Notes under the pieces: generated by a model
Told to the model about the DNA's origin: nothing
Databases searched by the model: none
What the model saw: only the letters and a program-made list of their open reading frames with translations
NCBI GenBank assembly: GCA_944380315.1
Contig: CALWHG010000004.1
Span: forward strand, 30,126 to 94,125
Length of the DNA stretch: 64,000 nt
DNA from: an uncultured Lachnospiraceae bacterium
GTDB lineage: Bacteria; Bacillota; Clostridia; Lachnospirales; Lachnospiraceae
Reading direction: 5' to 3'
Position numbers and translations under genes: made by a program
Shown: positions 5,483 through 31,875 of the stretch, one piece after another
Layout: the number at the start of each line of letters is the position of its first letter
Position numbering within the stretch: position 1 is the stretch's first letter

Positions 5483-6241
5483 ATGAACGGGACTGAAGCT
5501 CATCACATAGGAAACTGCATAATCACTCTGGGAGAGGACCTGCTGAGATACGGTGGAGAGGTGAGCAGGGTGGAGGATACGGTGTACAGGCTGGGCATGG
5601 CCTACGGCTTTAGGTCCGTGGACTGTCTGACCATCATGAACTGCATCATCATAAGCTTTACCTGCTCTGACGGGGAGACCTTTACCCAGATGCGCCGTGT
5701 CCTGGAGATAAGGAAGGACATGGAAAAGGTCAGGGCCTGCAATGGGCTCAGCCGTGAGCTCTGCGCAGAGCCCCGGGAGGCGGAGATATTTGAGCAGAGG
5801 CTTGAGGAGATAAGCCGCCAGCAGAGCTATCTGGCCTGGCAGATGTGCCTCATATATATGCTGACCTCAGCCTCCATGACTCTCTTCTTTGGAGGGAGCC
5901 TCTGGGACGCCGCGGCCTCAGGCGCGGCAGGAGCTGCCCTTTATCTCAGCGGCAGGTTCATGGACCTTGCCAGGATGCAGAATTTCGTCACCTCCTATAT
6001 CGAGGCCTTCATGGTGGGCTCGGCCATATGCCTCATGCTGGCTCTGGGACTTCCGGGACACTATGACCTCATATCCATGGGCAACATCATGCTCATGATA
6101 TCCGGCTCGGGACTCATGACCTCAGTAAGGGACATGATCAATAATGATCTGCTTAGCGGCATGATGGGCCTAGTGTCTGCACTCATGGGTGCGGCGGCCA
6201 TAGCACTGGGCTTCGTATCGGCGGCCCTGCTTTTTATGTAG
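5483..6241 (+). CDS. Threonine/serine exporter, N-terminal component (DUF1212)
   Basis: The 252-residue protein matches the PF06738 half of ThrE-type exporters. A soluble N-terminal segment contains LGEDLLRYGGEVSRVEDT, the conserved start of the family, and is followed by about five hydrophobic segments from residue ~115. It begins 5 bases after ligA. The partner membrane half is the next gene, so the two probably form one exporter of threonine, serine or small peptides. Confidence 0.88.
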   Translation: MNGTEAHHIGNCIITLGEDLLRYGGEVSRVEDTVYRLGMAYGFRSVDCLTIMNCIIISFTCSDGETFTQMRRVLEIRKDMEKVRACNGLSRELCAEPREAEIFEQRLEEISRQQSYLAWQMCLIYMLTSASMTLFFGGSLWDAAASGAAGAALYLSGRFMDLARMQNFVTSYIEAFMVGSAICLMLALGLPGHYDLISMGNIMLMISGSGLMTSVRDMINNDLLSGMMGLVSALMGAAAIALGFVSAALLFM

Positions 6242-16470: not shown

Positions 16471-18629
16471 TGGACGAAAACAGAGACAACAGAGATGATC
16501 AGTGGGGCTTCGGCGGAGGAGACGGAAATGGAGGAGACAGACGCGGCCCCGGCAGGAGAGGAGGATACGACCCCGGACCGGGAGGCGGATTTTCCTCCAG
16601 TATGATGGCGCTCATCATCACACTGCTGGTGAGCTTCTTCCTCATGAACATGGGGAGGAGCGCCATAAATGATACGAGCAGAGTAGAGGTGCCCTACACC
16701 GAGTTTTATGAAATGGTGGATGAGGGCATAGTGGACAGCGTGGAGGTGGGAGAGACTCAGATATCCATAAGAGTGCGTCCCGATGCCCCGGGCTATTCCT
16801 CTGCTCTTACTTATTATACACAGAAGATGGATGACCCTCTGCTTTCCACCTATCTTGTGAGCAGAGGCGTCACTGCATATCAGCAGAAGCCCAGCAATAC
16901 GGGGCTCATATTTGACATCATAGTCACCATAGTCCTGCCCATACTTATGCTGGTCATCATGATCAACTATATGAACAAGCGCATGGGAGGAGGCTCCGGT
17001 GGCATCATGGGCGTGGGCAAGTCCACAGCCAAGATGTACATGCAGAAGCAGACCGGAGTCACCTTTGCGGACGTGGCCGGCGAGGATGAGGCCAAGGAGT
17101 CCCTGGTGGAGATAGTGGATTTCCTCCACGATCCGGAAAAGTACAGGAAGATAGGCGCCAAGCTGCCCAAGGGTGCCCTGCTGGTGGGACCTCCGGGCAC
17201 TGGAAAGACTCTGCTCGCCAAGGCAGTGGCAGGAGAGGCCGACGTGCCCTTCTTTTCACTGACAGGCTCGGACTTCGTTGAGATGTTCGTGGGCGTGGGA
17301 GCATCCAGGGTCAGAGACCTTTTCAAGCAGGCCAACTCTGTGGCACCCTGTATCATTTTCATAGATGAGATAGATGCCATAGGCAAGTCCAGGGACAACA
17401 GGCTTGGCTCAAATGATGAGAGGGAGCAGACCCTCAATCAGCTGCTGTCCGAGATGGACGGCTTCGACCCCGGCAAGGGCATCATGGTGCTCGGGGCCAC
17501 GAACAGACCGGAGATACTGGATCCGGCGCTGCTCCGTCCGGGAAGGTTCGATCGACGGGTCATAGTCGAGAAGCCGGATCTTCGAGGAAGAGTGGAGATA
17601 CTCAAGGTGCATTCCAAGGGAGTGAAGTTGGACAGCACCGTGGATTTTGAAGAGATAGGCCTGGCCACCAGCGGAGCTGTGGGCGCAGACCTTGCAAATA
17701 TGATGAATGAGGCGGCCATCACCGCGGTCAAGCATGGCAGGGCCGCAGTGAGTCAGAAGGACCTTTTTGAGGCCGTGGAGGTGGTGCTGGTCGGCAAGGA
17801 AAAGAAGGACCGCATACTTTCACAGGAGGAAAGACGCATAGTATCCTATCATGAGGTGGGACATGCGCTTATCGCGGCCATACAGAAGGATGCGGAGCCC
17901 GTTCAGAAGATCACCATAGTCCCCAGGACCATGGGGGCCCTAGGCTATGTCATGCAGGTGCCTGAGGAGGAAAAATACCTCAACACAAAAAAGGAGCTTC
18001 AGGCCATGCTGGTCACCACTCTGGGCGGCAGGGCTGCTGAGGAGCTGGTATTTGATACGGTCACTACAGGAGCCTCAAATGACATAGAGAAGGCCACCCA
18101 GATAGCAAGGGCCATGATCACTCAGTACGGCATGAGCGACAAGTTCGGGCTCATGGGACTTGCCAGACAGCAGGACATGTACCTTACGGGCAGGACCGTC
18201 ATGGACTGCGGAGACGAGACGGCCACAGAGGTGGACCATGAGGTCATGAAGATGCTGAAGGAGGCCTACGAGGAGGCTAAGCGCATCCTTTCCGAAAACA
18301 TGGAGGCCCTTCATCGCATATCTGATTATCTGATAAAGAAGGAGACCATCACAGGCAAGGAATTCATGGACATACTCGCAAGGGTCAATGCCCACGAGCC
18401 CGTGACTGAGTTGGAGCAGTCCCCTGAGCAGGAGGCAGCCGCCCCGGCAGGCGGAGCAGCAGTCGCCTCCAAGGAGCCGGCAAGGTCGGATGCGGCAGAC
18501 GGCTCAGGAAGACAGGGTACTGAAGACAGCTCAGACTCGGAGGATCATGGAGACGAGCCACGCCACAAGGCCAGCTTTGAGGATGTAGCGGCTCAGATGA
18601 ATATAGATACAGGAGCTGGAAACAAATAA
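16470..18629 (+). CDS. ftsH: ATP-dependent zinc metalloprotease FtsH
   Basis: 719 residues. This membrane-anchored AAA+ protease degrades misfolded membrane proteins and regulators. It has an unusually Gly/Asp/Arg-rich cytoplasmic N-terminus (1-40), membrane segments at about 41-61 and 147-166, an AAA domain with Walker A GPPGTGKT (240-247) and Walker [12 protein letters not shown], the second region of homology ending LRPGRFDRR, and the zinc site HEVGH (461-465). The last ~75 residues are an acidic, Ala/Ser-rich tail. The start overlaps the DUF1846 stop. Confidence 0.97.
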
Positions 18630-22736: not shown

Positions 22737-24287
22737 ATGGAACATAACGGCCAGGAAATGATCATAGTCATGGACTTTGGCGGACAGTACAATCAGCTTA
22801 TCGCCCGCAGAGTGCGTGAATGTCATGTCTATTGTGAGGTCCACCCTTCTACCCTTTCTCTGGATAAGATCAGAGAGATGGCTCCGAAGGGCATCATATT
22901 TACCGGCGGTCCCAACTCTGTCTACAACGAGGAGTCGCAGCATGTGGACAAGGCCATATTTGACATGGGCATACCCATACTCGGCATCTGCTACGGAGCC
23001 CAGCTCATAGCCTACACTCTGGGCGGCAGAGTAGAGACGGCTCCTACCTCGGAGTACGGAAGGACCGAGATCAGATATGACAGATCCTCTGTCCTTTTCA
23101 GGGATGTGCCTGAGAGCTCAGTGGCCTGGATGAGCCATACTGATTACATAGCAGAGGCTCCCGAGGGCTTCAGGGTCACGGCCTCCACAGCCGTATGTCC
23201 CATAGCTGCCATGGAGTGTGCTGAGAGGAAGATATATGCCATCCAGCCTCATCCTGAGGTAAACCATACGGAGCATGGCTTTGACATGCTTAAGGCTTTC
23301 GTCATGGATGTCTGCGGCTGCAGCGGCGACTGGACCATGGGCTCATTTATAGAAAACAGCATAGCCTCCATACGTGAAAAGGTAGGCTCAGGCAGAGTGC
23401 TGCTGGCCCTTTCCGGAGGCGTGGATTCATCGGTATGTGCCGTGCTCCTTTCCAAGGCCATCGGAAAGCAGCTGACCTGCGTATTCGTCGATCACGGTCT
23501 GCTCCGCAAAAATGAGGCTCAGGAGGTCGAGGACATATTTGGAGACAAGGGCATATATGACCTCAACTTCGTACACGTGGATGCTTCAAAGCGCTTTTAT
23601 GAAAAGCTCTCCGGGGTGACTGACCCTGAGCAGAAGCGTAAGATCATAGGCGCAGAATTCATAAATGTATTTGAGGAGGAAGCCAAAAAGATAGGTGCAG
23701 TGGACTTCCTTGCCCAGGGCACCATATATCCAGATGTCATAGAGTCGGGCCTTGGCAAGTCCGCAGTCATAAAGTCCCATCACAATGTGGGCGGACTTCC
23801 TGAGCATGTGGATTTCAAGGAGATCATAGAGCCCCTGAGGCTGCTCTTTAAGGATGAGGTCAGGGCAGCCGGCCTGGAGCTGGGACTTCCCGAATATCTG
23901 GTGTTCCGTCAGCCTTTCCCCGGTCCCGGACTTGGAGTGCGTATCATAGGCGACATAACACCGGACAAGATCAGGATAGTACAGGATGCTGACTATATAT
24001 ACAGGGATGAGATCGCAAAGGCAGGTCTTGACAAGCATATAAGCCAGTACTTTGCAGCTCTCACAAACATGCGCTCCGTAGGAGTCATGGGAGACTTCCG
24101 CACCTACGATTATGCTGTAGTACTTCGTGCGGTGCTGACCTCCGACTTCATGACGGCCACGGCAGCAGATCTGCCCTATGAGCTGCTCCAGCGCATCATG
24201 ACCCGCATAGTCAACGAGGTCAAGGGAGTCAACCGCGTACTTTACGATGTGACGAGCAAGCCCCCGGGAACCATAGAGATGGAGTGA
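22737..24287 (+). CDS. guaA: GMP synthase (glutamine-hydrolysing) GuaA
   Basis: 516 residues. It makes GMP from XMP, ATP and glutamine. The class I glutamine amidotransferase domain (about 1-195) has the nucleophile in GICYGAQL and the HPE motif in QPHPEV. The ATP-pyrophosphatase domain has the P-loop [12 protein letters not shown], and the C-terminal dimerisation domain ends in the family-typical PPGTIEME. The ATG at 22737 follows AAAGGAGAG. An integrated element starts in the last codons of this gene; the insertion preserves the reading frame and stop codon. Confidence 0.97.
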
Positions 24288-24288
24288 T
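24276..24288 (+). repeat. attL core (guaA-proximal copy)
   Basis: GAGATGGAGTGAT spans the last codons and stop of guaA and recurs exactly at 31600-31612. Just upstream, GGAAC also recurs beside the right copy with a 4-base shorter gap. Confidence 0.85.
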
Positions 24289-24344
24289 CCCACAGGTCTA
24301 AAAAGCCCAGTTATCACCGGACTTTTTAAGGATTTGAGCCTTTC

Positions 24345-24363
24345 GTGGCAACGAAATGGCAAC
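24345..24363 (+). repeat. Left arm-type integrase site
   Basis: GTGGCAAC-GAAA-TGGCAAC. The same bipartite motif with a different 4-base spacer is at 31480-31498, near the right end. Shared motifs inside both ends are typical integrase arm-binding sites. Confidence 0.7.
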
Positions 24364-24384
24364 AAAACTTCATTATTCAACAAT

Positions 24385-24427
24385 AAAGAGCTAACTGATT
24401 TTGATTAAGTCAGTTAGCTCTTTTTTT
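24385..24427 (+). terminator. Strong terminator inside the left end of the element, serving guaA
   Basis: AAAGAGCTAACTGA pairs with TCAGTTAGCTCTTT across an 11-base loop and is followed by seven T. It lies inside the element, so the element supplies a terminator to guaA and shields its own minus-strand genes. A smaller AAAAAG/CTTTTT hairpin precedes it at 24300-24327. Confidence 0.85.
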
Positions 24428-24447
24428 GCGCTCATGAATGAAGTGTG

Positions 24448-25299
24448 TCATTCTTTAATATTAATTTTAATTTTGGGATTACTTTTTAGAATGTCAAAGG
24501 AAGCTTTAAGTTCTTTGATCGGCAAAGGCTGAACGTGACTTCCTTCAATGTTTTCTTTGTCTTTAGTTTTGAAGATAACCGGCACTTTCACATCGTATTT
24601 TCTACAAAACGTACCATATGTATTTATACCATCGAGTATATCGTTTGCAAAGTAGCTGAAGAAATCAATATAGAGCGCATAAATCATACCACTCATGTTA
24701 TCTACCAGCCCTGGCAGATCGATTATATCATCCATCTTCTGTATGTCATCTTTAGAGTGTTTCCAATTGTCAAATTGCAGAAGGTGTTCTTTAGTGCAGA
24801 TGATTCTGCATCCAGTATCGACAGACTCTTGATATACAGAGTACGGAAATTCACAATGAACTATATAATTTCTAAAGTTTGCCCAAAATCTATACTCAAT
24901 ATTTTTATCATAGAAAGTATGGCATATTGCCTCAAAAGAAGATAACGCCTCTTTAGTGGATTTTTTCTTTAGGAGGCGAGTTTCCATATCAATGTATGTT
25001 TTGATTGAAGAAGCATAGTTCAATACCGCTTTATTGGCAAGTGTTATTGCTCGTTCTGGAGACACATTATTTCTTCTTAGCATCTTGAGATTTTGTGCCC
25101 CCATAAATCGTTTGAAGCTTTCACCATTCTCAACGACAATGTCTTTTATCTGCGTAATGCTATGATAAATACTGCATACACGGAAGGCTGAATTTAGTTG
25201 TGTAAGTTCTCCTTGTGTAATTTCATTTTTTAGTACGATATCTGCATCTGTTTTTTGTGGATGATACGTTTCGGCTACATATAAGAGTAGTTTACTCAT
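24448..25299 (-). CDS. HEPN-like protein of unknown function, element cargo
   Basis: The 283-residue, largely helical protein is not a family I can name. Its clearest feature is FRNYIVH (R143-N144-x3-H148), which has the R-N-x3-H form of the RNase active site of HEPN domains, inside a predicted helix after ALSSFEAICHTFY. No signal peptide or membrane segment is seen. The start overlaps the end of the upstream XRE regulator gene by 4 bases (ATGA), so the pair is an operon. A regulator coupled to a HEPN-like protein on a defence-bearing element suggests a toxin or phage-response effector, but that is inference. Confidence 0.55.
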   Translation of the reverse strand: MSKLLLYVAETYHPQKTDADIVLKNEITQGELTQLNSAFRVCSIYHSITQIKDIVVENGESFKRFMGAQNLKMLRRNNVSPERAITLANKAVLNYASSIKTYIDMETRLLKKKSTKEALSSFEAICHTFYDKNIEYRFWANFRNYIVHCEFPYSVYQESVDTGCRIICTKEHLLQFDNWKHSKDDIQKMDDIIDLPGLVDNMSGMIYALYIDFFSYFANDILDGINTYGTFCRKYDVKVPVIFKTKDKENIEGSHVQPLPIKELKASFDILKSNPKIKINIKE

Positions 25300-25826
25300 T
25301 TCTCCTCCTCACTCAAAGCCTCAACGAGCATATCGCTGAGTGCCTGCGAAGGCGCCTTTGCCCAACGCTGAGTGATATCAAATTCGGGATAGCGATAACG
25401 CCAACGGTCGTATTCATCCTGCGTGATCTCGCCTGCTTTGAGCATAGCGGCAGCTTGCCGCCATGCACACAGCATTTCGTGAAGCTGTGCGGCATCCTTG
25501 TTCTTGCGCACATCGACCTTCAAGCAGATTTCCCCATCGGCTTCGTCGATATGGAGTCCGTATCTGTCCTCCAAGGTAAACAGCGTGTGCATCAGACCGA
25601 TATAGGAATCAATGTCCGGTACGGCGAGAGCCTGCGGAGATACATCAAGGGTATCAGCCAATGCTGCAGTCAAATCGGTTTTAGGAGTTCTTGTCCCTGT
25701 TTCGTACTGAGCAAGACGAACATCGGCAGACTTCTCCGGGAAGCCCACCTGCATACCAAGATATTTCTGAGTCATACCACGCATATTGCGGAAAAAGTTG
25801 ATTCTTTCGCCAATAGCCATAATCAT
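25296..25826 (-). CDS. XRE-family transcriptional regulator of the element
   Basis: 176 residues. The N-terminal helix-turn-helix (about 5-62: GERINFFRNMRGMTQKYLG...ETGTRTPKTDLTAALADTL) is followed by a conserved C-terminal region (IDSYIGLMHTLFTLEDRYGL...GEITQDEYDRWRYRYPEFD) seen in regulators of Clostridiales integrative elements. It probably represses its own divergent promoters: copies of ATTTGTTTA lie in its promoter spacer and across the intergenic region. GGAGAG precedes the ATG; a second in-frame ATG is 2 codons downstream. It is translationally coupled to the HEPN-like gene. Confidence 0.85.
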   Translation of the reverse strand: MIMAIGERINFFRNMRGMTQKYLGMQVGFPEKSADVRLAQYETGTRTPKTDLTAALADTLDVSPQALAVPDIDSYIGLMHTLFTLEDRYGLHIDEADGEICLKVDVRKNKDAAQLHEMLCAWRQAAAMLKAGEITQDEYDRWRYRYPEFDITQRWAKAPSQALSDMLVEALSEEEK

Positions 25827-25856
25827 TCTCTCCTATCGTATATGTCTTATTCAAAT

Positions 25857-25885
25857 ATTATAACATATTTGTTTAGGATAGTCAA
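25857..25885 (-). promoter_or_regulatory. Near-consensus promoter of the XRE/HEPN-like operon
   Basis: On the minus strand TTGACT and TATAAT are separated by 17 bases. One copy of the ATTTGTTTA repeat (25867-25875) lies inside the spacer, consistent with autorepression. Confidence 0.8.
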
Positions 25886-25976
25886 GATATCTTAAATAAA
25901 TTTGTTTAATATTTTTCTGCAAACTCCTTGACATAAACATAAACGTTTAGCATAATAATGGTGAAGATAAACAAAT
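25867..25976. repeat. Three copies of a 9-bp operator-like motif
   Basis: ATTTGTTTA is at 25867-25875 and 25900-25908, and its reverse complement TAAACAAAT at 25968-25976. A palindrome TAAACGTTTA (25940-25949) sits between them, in the spacer of the rightward promoter. The set covers both divergent promoters and is the natural binding region for the XRE regulator. Confidence 0.65.
25928..25956 (+). promoter_or_regulatory. Rightward promoter of the element backbone
   Basis: TTGACA and CATAAT are separated by 17 bases, divergent from the XRE promoter. The palindrome TAAACGTTTA falls in the spacer. Confidence 0.75.
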
Positions 25977-26266
25977 ACGCTTAATTTTCTAAAAACGGCA
26001 TGATAATACTCGCTCGGGCAAATCGGAGGCGACAAGAAAGTATCCGACACGAAATAAGGATAATTATGCCAAAAGCTCAGAGAGCAAAGTCAATGGGAAT
26101 CTGAATCAATGTTTTAAGGATTTTTGGAAAAGACCGATGATTTTTCCTCTCTAAAATTCCGAATCAGTGAAAGGGGTGATTTACAAAACAATCCAAAACA
26201 ACTGAATAACAGCCGCAGGAAACCGTCAGTCAACCGCAGATCAACAAATCACAGGAGGTACGCTTA
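25977..26266 (+). other. Untranslated leader between the rightward promoter and the excisionase-like gene
   Basis: About 290 bases with no convincing gene on either strand. With the divergent promoters at 25857-25956 it completes the 440-base gap between genes. It may hold part of the original transfer region, but I recognise no nick site or structured RNA. Confidence 0.5.
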
Positions 26267-26458
26267 TTGAACGAAAACAACTTTATGAGAGTCGAGGATG
26301 TGGCAAAGGAGCTTGGGATCTCTATCTCCCATGCCTACAAAGTCATGCAGCAGCTCAATAAGGAGCTGAAAGCAAAAGGGTATATGACCATCGCAGGAAG
26401 GGTCAACCGCAAATATTATATGGAAAAGTTCTGCTACAACGGAACGGAAAGGAAGTGA
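26267..26458 (+). CDS. Excisionase-like small helix-turn-helix protein
   Basis: 63 residues. The RVEDVAKELGISISHAYKVMQQLNKELKAKG segment is a winged-helix/HTH of the type found in small excisionase or DNA-binding proteins placed just before tyrosine integrase genes. The start is a TTG at 26267 with AGGAGG 8 bases upstream. It ends 4 bases before the integrase fragment. It would direct integrase toward excision if the integrase were intact. Confidence 0.75.
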   Translation: MNENNFMRVEDVAKELGISISHAYKVMQQLNKELKAKGYMTIAGRVNRKYYMEKFCYNGTERK

Positions 26459-26462
26459 TCAA

Positions 26463-26864
26463 ATGGCAGTTTATAAAGAAGAAAAAACAGGCACTTGGCG
26501 AGTGATTTACCGCTACACCGATTGGACGGGTGAAAAGAAGCAGACACAGAAGCGTGGTTTTCAGACCAAGCGTGAAGCACAGGCTTGGGAGCGTGAACAG
26601 CTCAATAAAGCGAGAGCCGATCTGGATATGACCTTCAAGAGCTTCGTGGAGCAGTACACGGCAGATATGCAGACCCGCATCAAGGAAAACACATGGGCAA
26701 CCAAGGAGCATATCATCCGTTCCAAGCTGTTGCCGTACTTCGGTAAACTGAAGATGAGCAACATCACCGCCCAGCAGATCATCACATGGCAAAACGAGCT
26801 TATGTTGCCCAAGAGAAAAAAGAACACAAATTGCAAAAAGCCCTGGATGCCGCACACAAGCTGA
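26463..26864 (+). pseudogene. int: Tyrosine integrase, truncated (catalytic domain deleted)
   Basis: Of the 133 codons, the first ~114 are a normal tyrosine integrase N-terminus: arm-type DNA-binding domain (MAVYKEEKTGTWRVIYRYTDWTGEKKQTQKRGF in pieces) and the start of the SAM-like core-binding domain (TFKSFVEQYTADM...ITAQQIITWQNELM). After NELM the sequence leaves the integrase family and reads relaxase DNA in the wrong frame for 19 codons. The whole catalytic domain with the R..HxxR..Y residues is absent, so the product cannot recombine DNA. The deletion junction is near 26800. Confidence 0.88.
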
Positions 26865-27100
26865 TCGCAGAATTGAAAAACACGGTAGCCGATCTCACAA
26901 GGAAATTGGCAGCGGCAACTAAAGAGCTTGCCGAGTATAAATCCGTTCGCAGCAAACTCAACGCCGCCAACGTAGAACAAGAAAATGAGCGTCTACGCAA
27001 CAGGCTCCGCACCTATGAGGATGTAATTTTTCGAAATAATCTATGGTCTTATTTCTCCCGACACAGAGGAAAAACACCCACAAAAGACGATGCCCGCTGA
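26786..27100 (+). pseudogene. C-terminal remnant of a Pre/MobV-type relaxase
   Basis: From about 26803 the frame encodes a coiled-coil (KKEHKLQKALDAAHKLIAELKNTVADLTRKL...) ending in ENERLRNRLRTYEDVIFRNNLWSYF, which resembles the tail of plasmid recombination/mobilisation enzymes. The first seven residues are integrase DNA read in another frame. The relaxase catalytic N-terminus is missing. With the truncated integrase it marks one deletion that removed the middle of the element. Confidence 0.65.
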
Positions 27101-27138
27101 TTCCCGTGTAGAACTGTAAAAAACGCAAATTGTCAAAT

Positions 27139-27179
27139 GGGAGCGTTCAAATCATACCGCATATCGTTTGGGCGCTCCC
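27139..27179 (+). other. Long hairpin after the relaxase remnant
   Basis: GGGAGCGTTCAAA (27139-27151) pairs with TTTGGGCGCTCCC (27167-27179) over 13 bp with two G-U pairs and a 15-base loop. No T-tract follows. It could be a weak terminator or an RNA-processing element. Confidence 0.55.
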
Positions 27180-27246
27180 TATCCAAAAATCAGCCTACTT
27201 TTACAGGAGATGAGCTGAGAAAAAATCGTGAAAAACAGGAGGTTTT

Positions 27247-27546
27247 ATGAGAATAGGTCTTTCCAAGAAACAGAAAGCAATCAACATCTATTTTAATGAA
27301 GCAGACAGTATGATCAAAGTCTGCACCTACAACACCGCACTCAAAAACAGGCTCACCGAGTTTGCCGGGAAATATCCCTCTGAGTGCCGATTGATCGACG
27401 ATGACGGAAACGGATGTCTGACCTTTGAGGTCAGCAAGGGGCGTTTCGGCTTCAAGCTGACCGCACCCTATGACGAAAACCGTCGCAAGGCCGCAAGTGA
27501 ACTGGCGAAGAAAAACACCAAACGATTAAGGAGGCAAGAACAATGA
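27247..27546 (+). CDS. Small conserved protein of Clostridiales mobile elements
   Basis: 99 residues, basic at the C-terminus (KKNTKRLRRQEQ). The opening KKQKAINIYFNEADSMIKVCTYNTALK and the aromatic FGFKLTAPYDENRRKAA block look like a small conserved accessory protein of integrative elements that I know only as hypothetical. AGGAGG lies 5 bases before the ATG, and the 3' end overlaps the next gene by 4 bases, so both are one operon. Confidence 0.65.
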   Translation: MRIGLSKKQKAINIYFNEADSMIKVCTYNTALKNRLTEFAGKYPSECRLIDDDGNGCLTFEVSKGRFGFKLTAPYDENRRKAASELAKKNTKRLRRQEQ

Positions 27547-27788
27547 AAATTCTGTCCTGTGTGTTCAATATGGATACAGCCTGCGTGGAACTGAAATTCG
27601 ATGACGGCACCATGATTGCGATTGACACAATCGCCGTGGAGAATGAGATTGCCGACAATATGTATCAGAGGTCAGAGCTGGACTATCTGATCTACAATGA
27701 CCCGGTAGGATATGCCGAGCTGATACTAAACGGCGATCCCGAAACCTATTTGAAATCCGTAACTGTGAATAAGCAGTTTGAGAACTAA
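27543..27788 (+). CDS. DUF6061-like small protein
   Basis: 81 residues, acidic. The pattern MKILSCVFNMDTACVELKFDDG...QRSELDYLIYNDPVGYAELILNG resembles DUF6061, a family carried by clostridial integrative elements with no known function. It overlaps the preceding gene by 4 bases and is followed at once by a strong terminator. Confidence 0.65.
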   Translation: MKILSCVFNMDTACVELKFDDGTMIAIDTIAVENEIADNMYQRSELDYLIYNDPVGYAELILNGDPETYLKSVTVNKQFEN

Positions 27789-27798
27789 GTGCTATATG

Positions 27799-27826
27799 CC
27801 GCCTGTAGATGTTTTTCTACAGGCGG
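27799..27826 (+). terminator. Terminator after the small element proteins
   Basis: CCGCCTGTAGA/TCTACAGGCGG, an 11-bp perfect stem with a 6-base loop, followed by TGTTTT. It separates the element backbone from the restriction-modification cargo. Confidence 0.85.
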
Positions 27827-27854
27827 TGTTTTCATATTGTTTACACCGAAGAGA

Positions 27855-27883
27855 TTGACATTATCAATCAAATGGCATATAAT
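27855..27883 (+). promoter_or_regulatory. Perfect-consensus promoter of the XRE-methyltransferase operon
   Basis: TTGACA and TATAAT are separated by 17 bases. It lies 32 bases before the small XRE gene that precedes the methyltransferase. Confidence 0.88.
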
Positions 27884-27891
27884 ATCAATCA
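27862..27891 (+). repeat. Operator-like TATCAATCA repeat over the promoter
   Basis: TATCAATCA occurs at 27862-27870 (in the spacer) and at 27883-27891 (just after the -10), 21 bases apart, about two helical turns. This is a likely site for the small XRE protein encoded immediately downstream. Confidence 0.6.
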
Positions 27892-27914
27892 GAATATCTA
27901 AGAAGAGGTGTAGT

Positions 27915-28127
27915 ATGACTACTTCAGAACAGATTCGTGTTTTGTGCGTAAGAACTGGTGTAAGCTTGTCTGAGCTTGCACGTAGGATTGATCAAACACC
28001 GCAAAACTTCAATGCTAAACTCAAACGAAATACAATAACCCAGGACGAACTTAATCAGATTGCAAAGGCTTTGGACGTTACATACGAACAATACTTTGTT
28101 TTGGGCAACGGTGAACTCGTTAAGTAA
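27915..28127 (+). CDS. Small XRE-family regulator preceding the methyltransferase
   Basis: 70 residues, almost entirely one helix-turn-helix domain (SLSELARRIDQTPQNFNAKLKRNTITQDELNQIAKALDVTYEQYF). The ATG at 27915 follows GAGGTG; the open frame extends 42 codons upstream but runs back through the promoter, so it is not coding there. It is 14 bases from the methyltransferase gene and probably tunes its expression. Confidence 0.8.
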   Translation: MTTSEQIRVLCVRTGVSLSELARRIDQTPQNFNAKLKRNTITQDELNQIAKALDVTYEQYFVLGNGELVK

Positions 28128-28141
28128 GAAAGGACTTTGCT

Positions 28142-29416
28142 ATGACTGAACATAAAATCATATTTGGCGATAGTCGTTCACTTAACCAAATTAAAGATAA
28201 ATCTGTGCAGCTAATCATAACCTCGCCCCCTTACTGGCAGTTAAAAGATTATGGCACAGAAGATCAGATTGGTTTCAATGACAGCTACGAAGAATACATA
28301 AACAATTTGAATTTAGTATGGAAAGAGTGCAACCGTGTTCTTTCTGATGGGTGCAGATTGTGTATCAATATTGGAGATCAATTTGCTCGTTCCGTATATT
28401 ATGGTAGATACAAGGTTATACCGATCAGAACAGAGATAATTCGTTTCTGTGAATCTCTCGGTATGGACTACATGGGAGCGATCATTTGGCAGAAAACGAC
28501 GACTATGAATACCTCTGGTGGCGGTGCTATTATGGGAAGTTTTCCTTATCCTCGTAATGGTATCCTTAAAATGGATTATGAGTTTATTCTGCTTTTCAAA
28601 AAATTAGGTAATGCTCCTAAGCCCACTCAACAGCAAAAGGAACAGTCTGCAATGACAAAAGAAGAGTGGGGACAGTATTTTTCTTCTCATTGGAATTTCA
28701 ATGGCGTCAAGCAGATGGGACACATCGCCATGTTCCCGGAAGAACTTCCCAAACGACTGATTAAGATGTTTTCCTTCGCAGGAGAAACAGTATTTGATCC
28801 GTTTGCAGGGAGTGGTACGACATCGCTTGCAGCAAAGAATCTTGGTCGAAATTCTATTGGTTATGAAATCAACAGAGATTTTGAACCCATCATTCGTGAG
28901 AAATTAGGAGCAGATCAACTTAGATTAGGCGAGGATACAAAGGTGATTTTTACAGAAGACGAAATCGGAAACATTTCTTCTTTTGATCAGCTCCCTTATA
29001 TTTTCAGTGATCCACATCGAATGGACAAAAAGGTTGATGTAAAGAAACTTCAATTCGGTTCAAAGATTGATCAGTCTGAAGCAAAACGTGATGAACTTTT
29101 TGGCGTAAAGCAAGTTATTTCCTCTGATAAAATTGAACTTAGTAATGGACTTGTCGTTCGTCTGCTGGGCATCAAACCTAACCCGCTATATCAAGGACAA
29201 GCTATCAGTTTCTTACAAGAGAAATTCCATAAGCGAAAGGTTTTCTTAAAGTATGACACTATAAAATACGATGCAGAAAACAATCTGATGTGCTATGTGT
29301 ATCTTGATAATAAAACCTTTATAAACAACCATTTGGTCAGAACGGGATATGTAGATGTCGACACATCGTTTGAATATACCTGTCAAAAGAAATTCCTAAA
29401 TTCACTTCCTAATTGA
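28142..29416 (+). CDS. DNA methyltransferase (beta-class, N4C/N6A) with a C-terminal SNase-like domain
   Basis: 424 residues. Motif IV TSPPYW is at 27-32 and the SAM-binding motif I FDPFAGSGTT follows near 218-227, the beta-class order. TSPPY-type motifs fit N4-cytosine or N6-adenine methylation. The last ~100 residues (VVRLLGIKPNPLYQGQ...LMCYVYLDNKTFINNHLVRTGYVDV) resemble a staphylococcal-nuclease fold in which the catalytic Asp-Thr-Pro-Glu region reads IKPNP, so this part is probably a binding module. It is the protective partner of the convergent MjaI-like endonuclease, 35 bases away. Confidence 0.88.
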   Translation: MTEHKIIFGDSRSLNQIKDKSVQLIITSPPYWQLKDYGTEDQIGFNDSYEEYINNLNLVWKECNRVLSDGCRLCINIGDQFARSVYYGRYKVIPIRTEIIRFCESLGMDYMGAIIWQKTTTMNTSGGGAIMGSFPYPRNGILKMDYEFILLFKKLGNAPKPTQQQKEQSAMTKEEWGQYFSSHWNFNGVKQMGHIAMFPEELPKRLIKMFSFAGETVFDPFAGSGTTSLAAKNLGRNSIGYEINRDFEPIIREKLGADQLRLGEDTKVIFTEDEIGNISSFDQLPYIFSDPHRMDKKVDVKKLQFGSKIDQSEAKRDELFGVKQVISSDKIELSNGLVVRLLGIKPNPLYQGQAISFLQEKFHKRKVFLKYDTIKYDAENNLMCYVYLDNKTFINNHLVRTGYVDVDTSFEYTCQKKFLNSLPN

Positions 29417-29420
29417 AAAC

Positions 29421-29444
29421 GGGCGGAGGTTTTCGCCTCCGCCC
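29421..29444. terminator. Shared terminator between methyltransferase and endonuclease
   Basis: GGGCGGAGG/CCTCCGCCC, a 9-bp GC-rich stem with a 6-base loop between convergent genes. A short T-rich stretch follows only on the minus-strand side. Confidence 0.7.
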
Positions 29445-29450
29445 TAAATG

Positions 29451-30041
29451 TTAGTCTTCAATTTCAATGGTCAAGCCAGTCTTAGTTTTAGTGTAGTAGA
29501 TCATCTTAACAGCGATTGTTTCAGATAAACGCCCCATAGTTTTGTATGTATCAGGCTTTACGGAATAAGGAACATTGCCAACATAGCCGTCAATGCCAAC
29601 AGATTCTTCTTCGGGAGTAGCAAGACGATAAGTTGTACCTTTGCGTTCTGCAAGAGAAGCTAAAATCGCCTTCTGAACATACATGCCGTTGAATGTCTTG
29701 GCAATGACGAGATCTTCAACCCAATGTTTAACCATTTCACGATCAATAAGCGGAATTGCATCACGAAGATTCTGTACCTGTGCATAAATCTTTTCGGTTG
29801 CCTTTTCGAAGGCATCGGGGTATCTTTCTACATACCAATCATGCCAATTCTCAATGGTAATTTCTTCGCCGGACGCCATAAACTCTGGGAATAATTCAGA
29901 CATTTGACCGACCACAACAGGACGGGTACCCTGCGCATTCTGATTTGCCCAGTTGATCAACTGAGAAGTGTATTTCGGAAAGCTGAAAGTGTCGCTTTCG
30001 TTATAGCTTTCTATGTTTTCGTTTTTCAGAGTATATTTCAT
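29451..30041 (-). CDS. MjaI-family type II restriction endonuclease
   Basis: 196 residues. The pattern FPKYTSQLINWANQNAQGTRPVVVGQMSELF near the start and ESVGIDGYVGNVPYSVKP near the end (candidate catalytic Asp in GIDGY and Lys in SVKP) fit the RE_MjaI family, whose founder cuts CTAG and is paired with an N4-cytosine methyltransferase. Sequence specificity here is inferred, not shown. It overlaps the upstream winged-helix gene by one base (TAATG) and converges on the methyltransferase gene. Confidence 0.72.
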   Translation of the reverse strand: MKYTLKNENIESYNESDTFSFPKYTSQLINWANQNAQGTRPVVVGQMSELFPEFMASGEEITIENWHDWYVERYPDAFEKATEKIYAQVQNLRDAIPLIDREMVKHWVEDLVIAKTFNGMYVQKAILASLAERKGTTYRLATPEEESVGIDGYVGNVPYSVKPDTYKTMGRLSETIAVKMIYYTKTKTGLTIEIED

Positions 30042-30346
30042 TACTTTTCTCCTTTGAAAATTTTTGTAATGACGCTCTTTCTTTCATCAATACCAGCTTT
30101 TCTCGAATCAAGATTTGCCATGTATTCATCGTATTCGTTTTCGTTTGCAATAATAAAATAACCCTTATTATTAGCTGCAACTGGTAGATCGTATTTTTCA
30201 ATACAAGCATCAATTAATTCACGGGCTTTTCTATGTGTCTTATCGCTTGATTTTCCGTATTCATCTTCAATCACCTGAGCAGATACTTCATTGCCTTTGC
30301 CGACATGACTCTCCAGTAAAACTTTTATTTTTTCCAATTTATCCAT
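30041..30346 (-). CDS. Small winged-helix protein of the restriction-modification operon
   Basis: 101 residues. KLEKIKVLLESHVGKGNEVSAQVIEDEYGKSSDKTHRKARELIDACIEKYDLPVAANNKGYFI (shown in pieces) reads as a winged helix: a cleft-forming helical part and a wing ending in NNKGYFI. The ATG at 30346 overlaps the end of the controller gene, and its stop overlaps the endonuclease start, so it is always co-translated with the enzyme. It may be a second regulator or a DNA-recognition helper of the endonuclease. Confidence 0.7.
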   Translation of the reverse strand: MDKLEKIKVLLESHVGKGNEVSAQVIEDEYGKSSDKTHRKARELIDACIEKYDLPVAANNKGYFIIANENEYDEYMANLDSRKAGIDERKSVITKIFKGEK

Positions 30347-30560
30347 TTTGTTGATCCTCCAGAAATAGTTTATATGTTTCGATTTCAAGTGCATCAGCTA
30401 TTCGCTGAATGTTTTCAAGGGAAATACTTCTGCGATAGCACTCGATTGCACTGATATATGTTCTGTGAAGCCCGCACTTTTCAGCAAAGGCTTCTTGGGA
30501 AATACCCAACGCCTGTCGATAGCGCTTCACGTTTCTTCCAAAAACTTTTACAATATCCAT
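30339..30560 (-). CDS. XRE-type controller (C) protein of the restriction-modification system
   Basis: 73 residues, a single HTH domain (VFGRNVKRYRQALGISQEAFAEKCGLHRTYISAIECYRRSISLENIQRIADALEI in pieces) with the size and Y/R-I-S-x-I-E core typical of restriction controller proteins, which delay endonuclease expression. The ATG at 30560 has GGAGG 9 bases upstream; the longer open frame upstream runs through a divergent promoter. It is first in the operon controller - winged helix - endonuclease. Confidence 0.85.
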   Translation of the reverse strand: MDIVKVFGRNVKRYRQALGISQEAFAEKCGLHRTYISAIECYRRSISLENIQRIADALEIETYKLFLEDQQNG

Positions 30561-30562
30561 AC

Positions 30563-30591
30563 TTGTAAACCTCCATGTTATATGATACAAT
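30563..30591 (+). promoter_or_regulatory. Promoter of the DUF6414 gene
   Basis: TTGTAA and TACAAT are separated by 17 bases. It overlaps the ribosome-site region of the divergent controller gene, so the two directions probably influence each other. Confidence 0.6.
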
Positions 30592-30605
30592 AATGAATAC
30601 AATAA
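30585..30605. repeat. Tandem ATACAATAA motif in the divergent regulatory region
   Basis: ATACAATAA occurs at 30585-30593 and 30597-30605, 12 bases apart, overlapping the DUF6414 -10 box. Paired short repeats before a controller gene are the usual form of C-boxes. Confidence 0.5.
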
Positions 30606-30651
30606 ATCTACAGACAATAAGTAACATCTGCATTGAGAAAGGAATGTTTTA

Positions 30652-31464
30652 ATGAAGTTACGCAATTTTTTATACTTAAACACAAAAGTAATAGAAGATT
30701 ATGTTTCTGCTATTGACGGATTTACATACGACGAAGAATCTCAGGAACTTGAAACCAGCAACGAAAACGTAGTGGCTGGAAAAGCCGCCGTTGGTGTGGC
30801 ATCTGGGAATGGATCTCATACTGGAAAGCAAACAGAGGGGATTAAACGTTCTGTGCGAATCAGCGATGCAGCAAAGTTCGATAAGATCTATAAATTTCTT
30901 CAATCCGACGAAGATGACGGAATGAAGTATTATGAATTCCTCTCGGAATCTGATTATAATGGTTTGCATCGTGATGACTTTCTTGAGGTACTGGTAACTG
31001 CAAGGTTCTCCAAAATGAAGGAGCTCACCGATAGCGTGAAGAAAATTGCTGAATTGGCAGCTGTCTTTGAAACCATAACAGACCAGCAGATACTCGACAA
31101 AAAAGCATCTGAAGCGGTTAATGGCTTCTCGGCGTTGGGTCAGATGAAAGCTGGCAAGGAAATATCCTGCGTTTTTGAATTTGAAGATGGGTCGTATCCG
31201 TTGGTTGCATATCTCGATGAAAGTTATTTTAGATGTGGGCAGGGCAATTTTGTAGGTCAAGCATATCTGCTTTGCAAAGTTATCAAAAAAATCCCCAAAG
31301 GGCAAAGTGTAAAGCTTGATGAAATATTTGATGACATCAAGAAGCTGCCCCTAAATAGAGCACAGCGAAGGAATATGCCTAAAAATATGGACAATCCTGC
31401 TGAGCTTCGGGACGTTATTAAAGGTCCTGCATTAGTGGTCCTGCCGATTGCAGTTTATCAATAA
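30652..31464 (+). CDS. DUF6414-like protein, defence-associated cargo candidate
   Basis: 270 residues. The start MKLRNFLYLNTKVIEDYVSAIDGFTYDEE is characteristic of DUF6414, a family without known function. A Gly/Ser-rich loop (about 43-60) separates it from a helical middle (FDKIYKFLQ...VTARFSKMKELTDSVKKIAELAAVF) and a beta-rich C-terminal part. There is no membrane segment. AAAGGA precedes the ATG. It is divergent from the restriction controller and is the last gene before the right arm site. A role beside restriction is inferred from position only. Confidence 0.65.
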   Translation: MKLRNFLYLNTKVIEDYVSAIDGFTYDEESQELETSNENVVAGKAAVGVASGNGSHTGKQTEGIKRSVRISDAAKFDKIYKFLQSDEDDGMKYYEFLSESDYNGLHRDDFLEVLVTARFSKMKELTDSVKKIAELAAVFETITDQQILDKKASEAVNGFSALGQMKAGKEISCVFEFEDGSYPLVAYLDESYFRCGQGNFVGQAYLLCKVIKKIPKGQSVKLDEIFDDIKKLPLNRAQRRNMPKNMDNPAELRDVIKGPALVVLPIAVYQ

Positions 31465-31479
31465 TGACACACAGATTCA

Positions 31480-31498
31480 GTGGCAACACTTTGGCAAC
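31480..31498 (+). repeat. Right arm-type integrase site
   Basis: GTGGCAAC-ACTT-TGGCAAC, the same bipartite motif as at 24345-24363, 16 bases after the DUF6414 stop. Confidence 0.7.
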
Positions 31499-31599
31499 AA
31501 AAAATCAGATAGCCCATACTGTCTGAATAATGAAAGTAATATAGATAATCCGGGCTAAATCCCATAAGCAAATCTGTTTAAGATTTATTTTTCAGGAAC

Positions 31600-31612
31600 G
31601 AGATGGAGTGAT
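31600..31612 (+). repeat. attR core
   Basis: Exact repeat of GAGATGGAGTGAT from the guaA end (24276-24288), preceded by GGAAC as in guaA. Sequence to the right is the native downstream flank of guaA. The 235 bases between the DUF6414 gene and the next gene hold this site, the right arm site and a promoter. Confidence 0.85.
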
Positions 31613-31692: not shown

Positions 31693-31875
31693 ATGGATCT
31701 TAAAGACCTTGAAGGACTTAAGGACAATATCGGCGACCTCATGAAAAACGTTAAGGAAGAGGACATCGATAAGATCAAGGAGCTTGTAAAGGACGGCGTG
31801 GACACTGACAAGATCAAGGATACACTTGGTAAGCTTGACGGACTCAAGGGGCTCTTCGGAGGAAAAAAGGACTGA
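31693..31875 (+). CDS. Small charged helical protein
   Basis: 60 residues, rich in Asp, Lys and Leu, with a repeated DLKDLEGLKDNI / DIDKIKELV / DTDKIKDTLGKL amphipathic pattern ending in GLFGGKKD. AGAGAG precedes the ATG, and the gene is flanked by its own promoter and terminator, so it is a monocistronic and probably well-expressed gene. I do not recognise its function. Codon use is native (host-like). Confidence 0.7.
   Translation: MDLKDLEGLKDNIGDLMKNVKEEDIDKIKELVKDGVDTDKIKDTLGKLDGLKGLFGGKKD

Follow-up and report, generated by a model that had tools for sequence, protein, structure and literature searches.

A guaA insert that looks like a crippled mobile element with restriction-modification cargo, and a candidate arm-site code for its integrase family

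The 3′ end of guaA, the GMP synthase gene, is a known address for mobile DNA. Integrative and mobilizable elements (IMEs) at guaA and cis-mobilizable elements (CIMEs) are already in print, as two reports show (PMC5704250, PMC5357655). A CIME is defined there as a derivative that retains its attachment (att) sites and has lost its integration and transfer genes (PMC5704250). Here we describe a 7.3-kb insert behind guaA in a 64,000-nucleotide stretch (the window) of contig CALWHG010000004.1, from an uncultured Lachnospiraceae bacterium. It looks like a mobile element that has been disabled, a single deletion having removed its integrase gene and transfer genes. The insert belongs to a known kind, the guaA IMEs and CIMEs; the new part, offered as a lead, is a partial code relating integrase residues to arm sites.

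The described systems nearest in integrase type and site are the streptococcal guaA IMEs (with Tyr_3 integrases), ATE-1, an IncP island and GIsul2 (PMC5357655, PMC5704250). They share with the window element a tyrosine integrase and the guaA 3′ end; they come from other hosts. They do bear out the claim, made in a preliminary description of this DNA, that the guaA 3′ end is an established island site.

The ends of the insert are precise (Table 1). A 13-bp core, GAGATGGAGTGAT, matches exactly at 24276-24288 and 31600-31612; in the 2,187,194-base genome it occurs exactly twice, on the same strand, and its reversed control not at all. Inside each end lies the arm pair TGGCAAC-N4-TGGCAAC, likewise with exactly two genome copies (24346 and 31481), both on the same strand, and none of the reversed control. 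Core and arm pair are separated by 58 bp on the left and 119 bp on the right; both spacings match a rule taken from other guaA elements (see below), which supports the ends assigned here. The G+C content is 0.36-0.45 inside and 0.50-0.53 outside. Terminal repeat, arm motif and unlike composition therefore all stand as first described, and the insert is confirmed, by its sequence features, as a site-specific insertion at guaA.

A complete IME occupies guaA in the relative G073 (locus L077; contig CALWYZ010000006, metagenome-assembled genome BRZ_KQ__bin77). Its cores lie 12,568 bp apart (12.6 kb), and it carries arm pairs at both ends, a helix-turn-helix (HTH) repressor, an Xis-like gene, and a 357-amino-acid (aa) integrase with Arm, SAM-like, and catalytic domains. 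Its mobility genes encode a NikA-like protein, an AAA_25 protein, and a Mob_Pre relaxase (PF01076); it also encodes DUF6061, a methyltransferase, a restriction endonuclease (REase), and a restriction-modification (R-M) control protein. The window element has the same backbone, ends, arm 7-mer, repressor, Xis-like gene, integrase N-terminal half and R-M system, with 99.3% protein identity for the methyltransferase, 98.5% for the REase, and 87.8% for the control protein. Four DNA blocks align between the two: 24270-24425 (96.2% identity), 25321-26804 (96.5%), 26801-30631 (89.7%), and 31476-31602 (96.1%). The outer limits of this similarity are the two cores; the gaps between blocks are two cargo slots and a 3852-bp deletion. 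G073 differs in its intact integrase and mobilization genes, and in the cargo of both slots (PDC-M35 and Dodola).

The deletion spans integrase codon 115 onward, the NikA-like protein, the AAA protein, a 93-aa open reading frame (ORF), and the relaxase domain. The remaining integrase is 133 aa long, with the SAM-like domain at residues 57-114; a domain search found no catalytic domain in the gene at 26463-26864. The relaxase-tail frame, 26786-27100, is open, and its start ATG lies inside the integrase fragment in another frame. An integrase without catalytic domain, together with a relaxase reduced to its tail, indicates a deletion derivative rather than a working element. The preliminary description recognized the site-specific guaA insertion with its att and arm sites, terminator, island site, and defence cargo, but missed both truncated genes and hence the deletion.

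Could the truncation be an assembly error, in which the full integrase and mobilization genes are real and two coexisting variants were fused? The assembly is a draft, and relatives' contigs often end inside the element. However, the contig is continuous for 94 kb, the joint shows 4-bp microhomology, as real deletions often do, and a second, different truncated integrase in the genome G005 indicates that such losses occur in the family. An artefact is quite improbable. The G005 gene belongs to a second guaA element (L023:1-3113); it encodes 328 aa and diverges from the G073 integrase behind an HDIRH stretch. That element also has a shortened repressor gene, and its next long frame, at least 651 aa and open at the contig end, includes an AAA ATPase part resembling PtuA.

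By the published definition the window element is, on the genes it encodes, a CIME. It retains attL and attR, with cores and arms as in the intact G073 element; no catalytic, NikA-like, AAA, or Mob_Pre domain is left; and the 3852-bp deletion relative to G073 marks decay from an integrative and conjugative element or an IME. The integrase and relaxase that a functional IME would bring along are both lacking. Like the CIMEs of PMC5704250, it keeps att sites, lacks integration and transfer genes, and sits at the 3′ end of a gene where tandem arrays form; it differs in its retained repressor and Xis-like gene and in a host and family for which the searches listed no description, and accretion arrays are seen in its relatives only.

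These features suggest a history to which we give a probability of about 0.87. A guaA-specific IME with defence cassettes would have entered the host through tyrosine-recombinase integration at the guaA 3′ end; exchange of the core across the stop codon would have left guaA intact and given it the element's terminator. A single internal deletion would then have taken the integrase catalytic domain, the NikA-like and AAA proteins, and most of the relaxase; measured against G073 it spans 3852 bp, with junction TATG. The remainder would be a CIME: attL, attR, arm sites, repressor, Xis-like gene, and R-M cargo. We infer that it is immobile in its cell, unable to excise itself, and that it could leave only through a related integrase of the same specificity (arm and core) acting in trans, or through integration alongside. 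The R-M system, if active in restriction, would defend the cell and probably also stabilise the locus by selecting against its loss; PMC5704250 treats R-M as a possible addiction system.

Several points weigh against this history. All genomes compared are drafts, mostly metagenome bins, and the region assembles badly, 14 of 17 contigs of related elements ending within 5 kb of the left end. The TATG junction was found in no other genome: among 397 family genomes G000 alone matches across it, G005 matches both halves on separate contigs, and 10 others match the integrase half only. Finally, the assembly of the element's own genome, at 95% completeness, may have missed a helper integrase.

The last point bears on whether the element is still mobile, excised in trans by a same-specificity integrase from another place in this cell or from a neighbouring strain. 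No corruption is seen in either end, either arm pair, the Xis-like gene, or the N-terminal arm domain, and the R-M proteins share 98-99% identity with their counterparts in a distant host, which suggests recent transfer. Against this, the truncated copy is the sole member of its integrase family found in the same genome, where a search to E 1e-10 yielded no second member and PF14657 gave one match. Continued mobility is therefore unlikely. Still less probable is that the cell profits from the 133-aa integrase half as a brake which, with its arm-binding and core-binding domains still present, would occupy the att sites and block excision by related integrases. The deletion does lie just behind the SAM-like domain with the frame left open, and the arm residues are unchanged; but a recent deletion gives the same picture without any function, and the 397 genomes showed no conservation of the truncated form. 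A recombinationally crippled CIME remains the favoured reading.

At the target, the guaA stop codon TGA (24285-24287) lies within the first core copy and guaA is intact; the preliminary description had the insertion restoring this stop. The proposed terminator finds support in folding: the stretch 24375-24432 is predicted to form a strong hairpin (-24.1 kcal/mol, z -6.4). A nearer hairpin, 24289-24335, is no better than shuffled sequence (z -0.8). The strong hairpin is kept in 13 of 17 related left ends; of the rest, one carries a different hairpin and three are interrupted where the contig stops. It had also been expected that an empty site would run from the guaA end directly into the sequence after 31612. 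The genus relative G007 (guaA 93% identical) is indeed free of insert and arm pair: its guaA end reads ...GAGATGGAGTGATTTTC, and sfsA begins at most about 80 bp later. The literal joint was not seen, there being no insert-free genome of the window's own species. In G003 and G019, guaA is followed by an opposite-strand homologue of the small gene at 31693 and then sfsA. The window order is guaA, insert, a 60-aa gene, two chromate transporters, azlC/azlD-like genes, and sfsA (azlC, azlD, and sfsA being what we take these neighbours to be from their sequences).

Relatives are spread over Lachnospiraceae, Oscillospiraceae, and other Clostridia. The left-end pattern occurs in 17 stretches of the genome collection, 15 directly behind the guaA end and two further down the guaA contig, as in tandem arrays; it is absent from viral_contigs. 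Left-end matches at E < 1e-50 come from 3 of 25 genus genomes (G000, G005, G010) and 2 of 397 family genomes (G000, G005). Leaving G005 out, a relative of its integrase (E 1e-20) is present in 4 of 16 genomes behind left-end loci. No near match of the window element was found among 72,556 plasmid records. Tandem arrays at guaA, with cores in G071 (L066) at 16764 (guaA), 26035, 33736, and 35246, and in G072 (L067) at 5557 (guaA) and 18294, indicate that accretion happens at this site. The four successive G071 cores (L079/L080) bound two or more elements whose integrases are full length, plus a third, short segment; the array integrases are 67% and 100% identical to the query L066 integrase.

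The spacing rule comes from a survey of guaA loci picked regardless of arm sites, long contigs preferred. An exact period-11 repeat occupies the expected place in 39 of 77 loci, and in 24 of 56 testable loci from a second set (60 fetched later); guaA is evidently a crowded island site in Lachnospiraceae. By a similar repeat test, 52 of 91 loci were positive, loci picked by pattern among them, versus 7 of 5548 control windows further downstream. Repeats keep company with forward integrases: the counts for repeat with integrase, repeat only, integrase only, and neither are 24, 9, 4, and 30 in the first set (p 4e-7), and 9, 8, 1, and 21 in the second (p 9e-4). Among the 44 elements for which 6 kb or more is available, 20 have the pair a second time downstream (at most one mismatch), at 24 places; in the other 24 elements it was not found within the available stretch. 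The best core match lies 119-123 bp beyond the second pair at 21 of the 24 places, and 16 of the 20 elements have it with no more than one of its 9 bases differing. Elements at guaA have this rigid att geometry in common; their arm 7-mers differ.

How, then, are the 7-mers chosen? We lean towards a recognition code in Arm-DNA-bind_4 integrases, in which 7-mers 11 bp (one helical turn) apart would be read by one face of the arm β-sheet. The element 7-mers include TGGCAAC, TGACAAC, TGACAAT, TGATAAC, TGATACC, TGATACT, TGATATT, TGATGTT, TGATTCT, TGCATTT, TGCTACT, TGGCTCT, TGGGTAC, and TGGTACT, plus some without an available integrase. They track integrase residues 13, 15, 17, and 29 (window protein numbering). 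The proposed rows are as follows: residue 29 sets base 3 (T, C, L, V, or M gives A; Q, S, N, or K gives G; W gives C); residue 13 sets base 4 (R or E gives C; Y, F, or L gives T; H gives G); residue 15 sets base 5 (Q gives T, otherwise mostly A); and residue 17 sets base 7 (R or H gives C; Y gives T). Rules for bases 4 and 7 were fixed before the second set was fetched; those for bases 3 and 5 were derived after pooling the two sets. All 8 aligned integrases of the second set obeyed the base-4 and base-7 rules, 7 of them with 7-mers already seen. Statistics covered 41 integrases, grouped at 80% arm identity into 22 clusters, with one further integrase (class TGCATTT) excluded because its arm domain was unaligned. 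The best protein columns were 29 for base 3, 13 for base 4, 15 for base 5, and 17 for base 7 (z 12.9). In these 220 tests, which ignore phylogeny, p was 0.003 for base 5 and reached its floor of 5e-4 for the other three bases.

Residue 31 probably sets base 2, R giving G and E giving C. This rule is exploratory and was first seen in the validation loci: integrases with E31 instead of R have CGTA-type rather than TG-type repeats directly behind the gene in 11 of 19 distinct cases listed, which suggests a base-2 switch. The CGTA-type loci are L247, L251, L261, L263, L267, L276, L286, L287, L297, L306, and L334. A structure predicted for the intact L066 integrase (pLDDT, a per-residue confidence score, 88) has strands at residues 11-19 and 25-33, along which 13, 15, 17 and 29, 31 alternate, as expected for one face. 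The predicted fold is closest to the Tn1549 and lambda integrases; solved Tn1549 chains begin at residue 82, with no arm domain visible, and a PDB sequence search with the intact integrase matched core and catalytic domains only. From Tn1549 and lambda, as from ICEBs1, which its Xis-like protein resembles, the window element differs in target site, in cargo, and in having no conjugation genes.

The code was tested on integrases from viral contigs and a PF14657 search. Exact TG pairs near 25 deduplicated integrases gave 54 of 81 predicted bases right, versus 41.8 (standard deviation, sd, 3.4) for permuted assignments (p 0.001), with 12 of 25 loci fully right. Period-11 repeats directly behind 33 deduplicated integrases gave 97 of 109 right versus 82.3 (sd 2.9; p 0.0003), a permuted mean raised by the free choice of phase; 24 of 33 loci were fully right. 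The two sets are not fully independent of the guaA elements: 9 of the 33 loci contain a guaA end, and some of the 25 are probably guaA elements with guaA outside the locus. Other results count against the code. In the TG-pair test 13 of 25 loci were not fully right: three had 0 of 3 bases right (L246, L350, L351), and ten were partly wrong (L250, L267, L274, L276, L280, L286, L300, L303, L305, L326), E31 being present in L267, L276, L280, and L286. Nine of 33 fell short in the period-11 test (L253, L254, L300, L303, L305, L314, L319, L340, L350). At 18 loci with no exact repeat in reach, imperfect repeats did no better than permuted assignments (9.00 versus 8.90, p 0.34). For base 6 no single residue stands out clearly as reader, and the p floor is also reached by column 3, for bases 4 and 6. 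Eight of the 19 listed E31 integrases lack the CGTA-type repeat, some at contig ends. Overall, the comparison of relatives suggests that the DNA sites of these integrases are partly readable from a few amino acids.

The cargo had been described as a dense set of defence-like genes. One clear type II R-M system stands: judged by domain matches it is complete, with an MjaI-family REase and its cognate methyltransferase. MjaI recognizes CTAG. The SNase-like domain of the methyltransferase (PF00565) scores 23.9 bits against a cut-off of 21. The rest are proteins without assigned function, and PADLOC gave no match for the DUF6414 protein or ORF 24448-25299. Both cargo slots look like exchangeable defence cassettes, since G073 has PDC-M35 (PDC-M35A, 322 bits; PDC-M35B, 170 bits) in slot 1 and DolA (176 bits) with DolB (345 bits), which together make up the Dodola system, in slot 2. 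Because the G073 DolA falls only just short of the DUF6414 cut-off (24.1 bits against 25), the window DUF6414 protein may be a lone DolA-like protein; it has no match among 50,697 phage records, and a literature search, outside which most subscription papers lie, found no paper on DUF6414. The ORF 24448-25299 protein, whose sole family match is phrog_30874, contains RNYIVH, fitting R-x4-6-H, the motif of HEPN nucleases. A prophage or phage-satellite origin was considered and rejected, as no structural or packaging gene was found (Pfam on the element's genes; PHROGs on five).

Table 1. Features of the guaA locus and its insert, in window coordinates
Feature	Position	Strand	Basis or remark
guaA (GMP synthase), intact, target gene	22737..24287	+	Pfam GMP_synt_C and GATase
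attL core, 13 bp, contains guaA stop	24276..24288	+	2 genome copies
Left arm pair TGGCAAC-N4-TGGCAAC	24346..24363	+	2 genome copies; position fixed among guaA elements
Terminator-like hairpin with T-run	24382..24426		Folding energy versus shuffles
Cargo slot 1, phrog_30874 protein	24448..25299	-	PHROGs, PADLOC, domain searches
HTH repressor, a conserved neighbour of xis and int among guaA elements	25296..25826	-	HTH match; homologues in relatives
Excisionase-like protein	26267..26458	+	ICEBs1 Xis likeness, 62.5 bits, below model cut-off 100
Truncated tyrosine integrase with Arm (PF14657) and SAM-like (PF14659) as its only domains; integrase sequence ends at codon 114	26463..26864	+	Domain search, G073 alignment
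Relaxase C-terminal tail (Mob_Pre), Mob_Pre domain lost	26786..27100	+	86% identical to G073 relaxase tail
Deletion junction, TATG common to both sides; 3852 bp of G073 element gone	26801..26804		Alignment to G073
99-aa ORF	27247..27546	+	Domain search, comparison with relatives
DUF6061	27543..27788	+	Domain search, comparison with relatives
HTH small gene	27915..28127	+	Domain search, comparison with relatives
Type II DNA methyltransferase, SNase-like C-terminal domain	28142..29416	+	PADLOC MTase_II 558 bits; PF01555, PF00565
MjaI-type restriction endonuclease	29451..30041	-	PF09568 222 bits; PADLOC REase_II 210 bits
Small protein, phrog_2113	30041..30346	-	PHROGs
R-M control protein (HTH)	30339..30560	-	PADLOC Control_protein 70.9 bits
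Cargo slot 2, DUF6414 protein; G073 has DolA and DolB there	30652..31464	+	PF19952 130 bits
Right arm pair TGGCAAC-N4-TGGCAAC	31481..31498	+	119 bp ahead of right core
attR core, 13 bp	31600..31612	+	2 genome copies; G073 similarity ends at 31602

Among the matches listed in the literature search, with most subscription papers outside it, no paper treats this guaA element family or an arm-site code. The intact element and its relative with a single deletion of mobility genes form a clean pair, which illustrates the change from a mobile carrier of defence genes to a defence island fixed in place. If true, the code would predict arm sites and element ends from integrase sequence; it would also tell which elements or helpers can mobilise which, including crippled islands such as the one described here.

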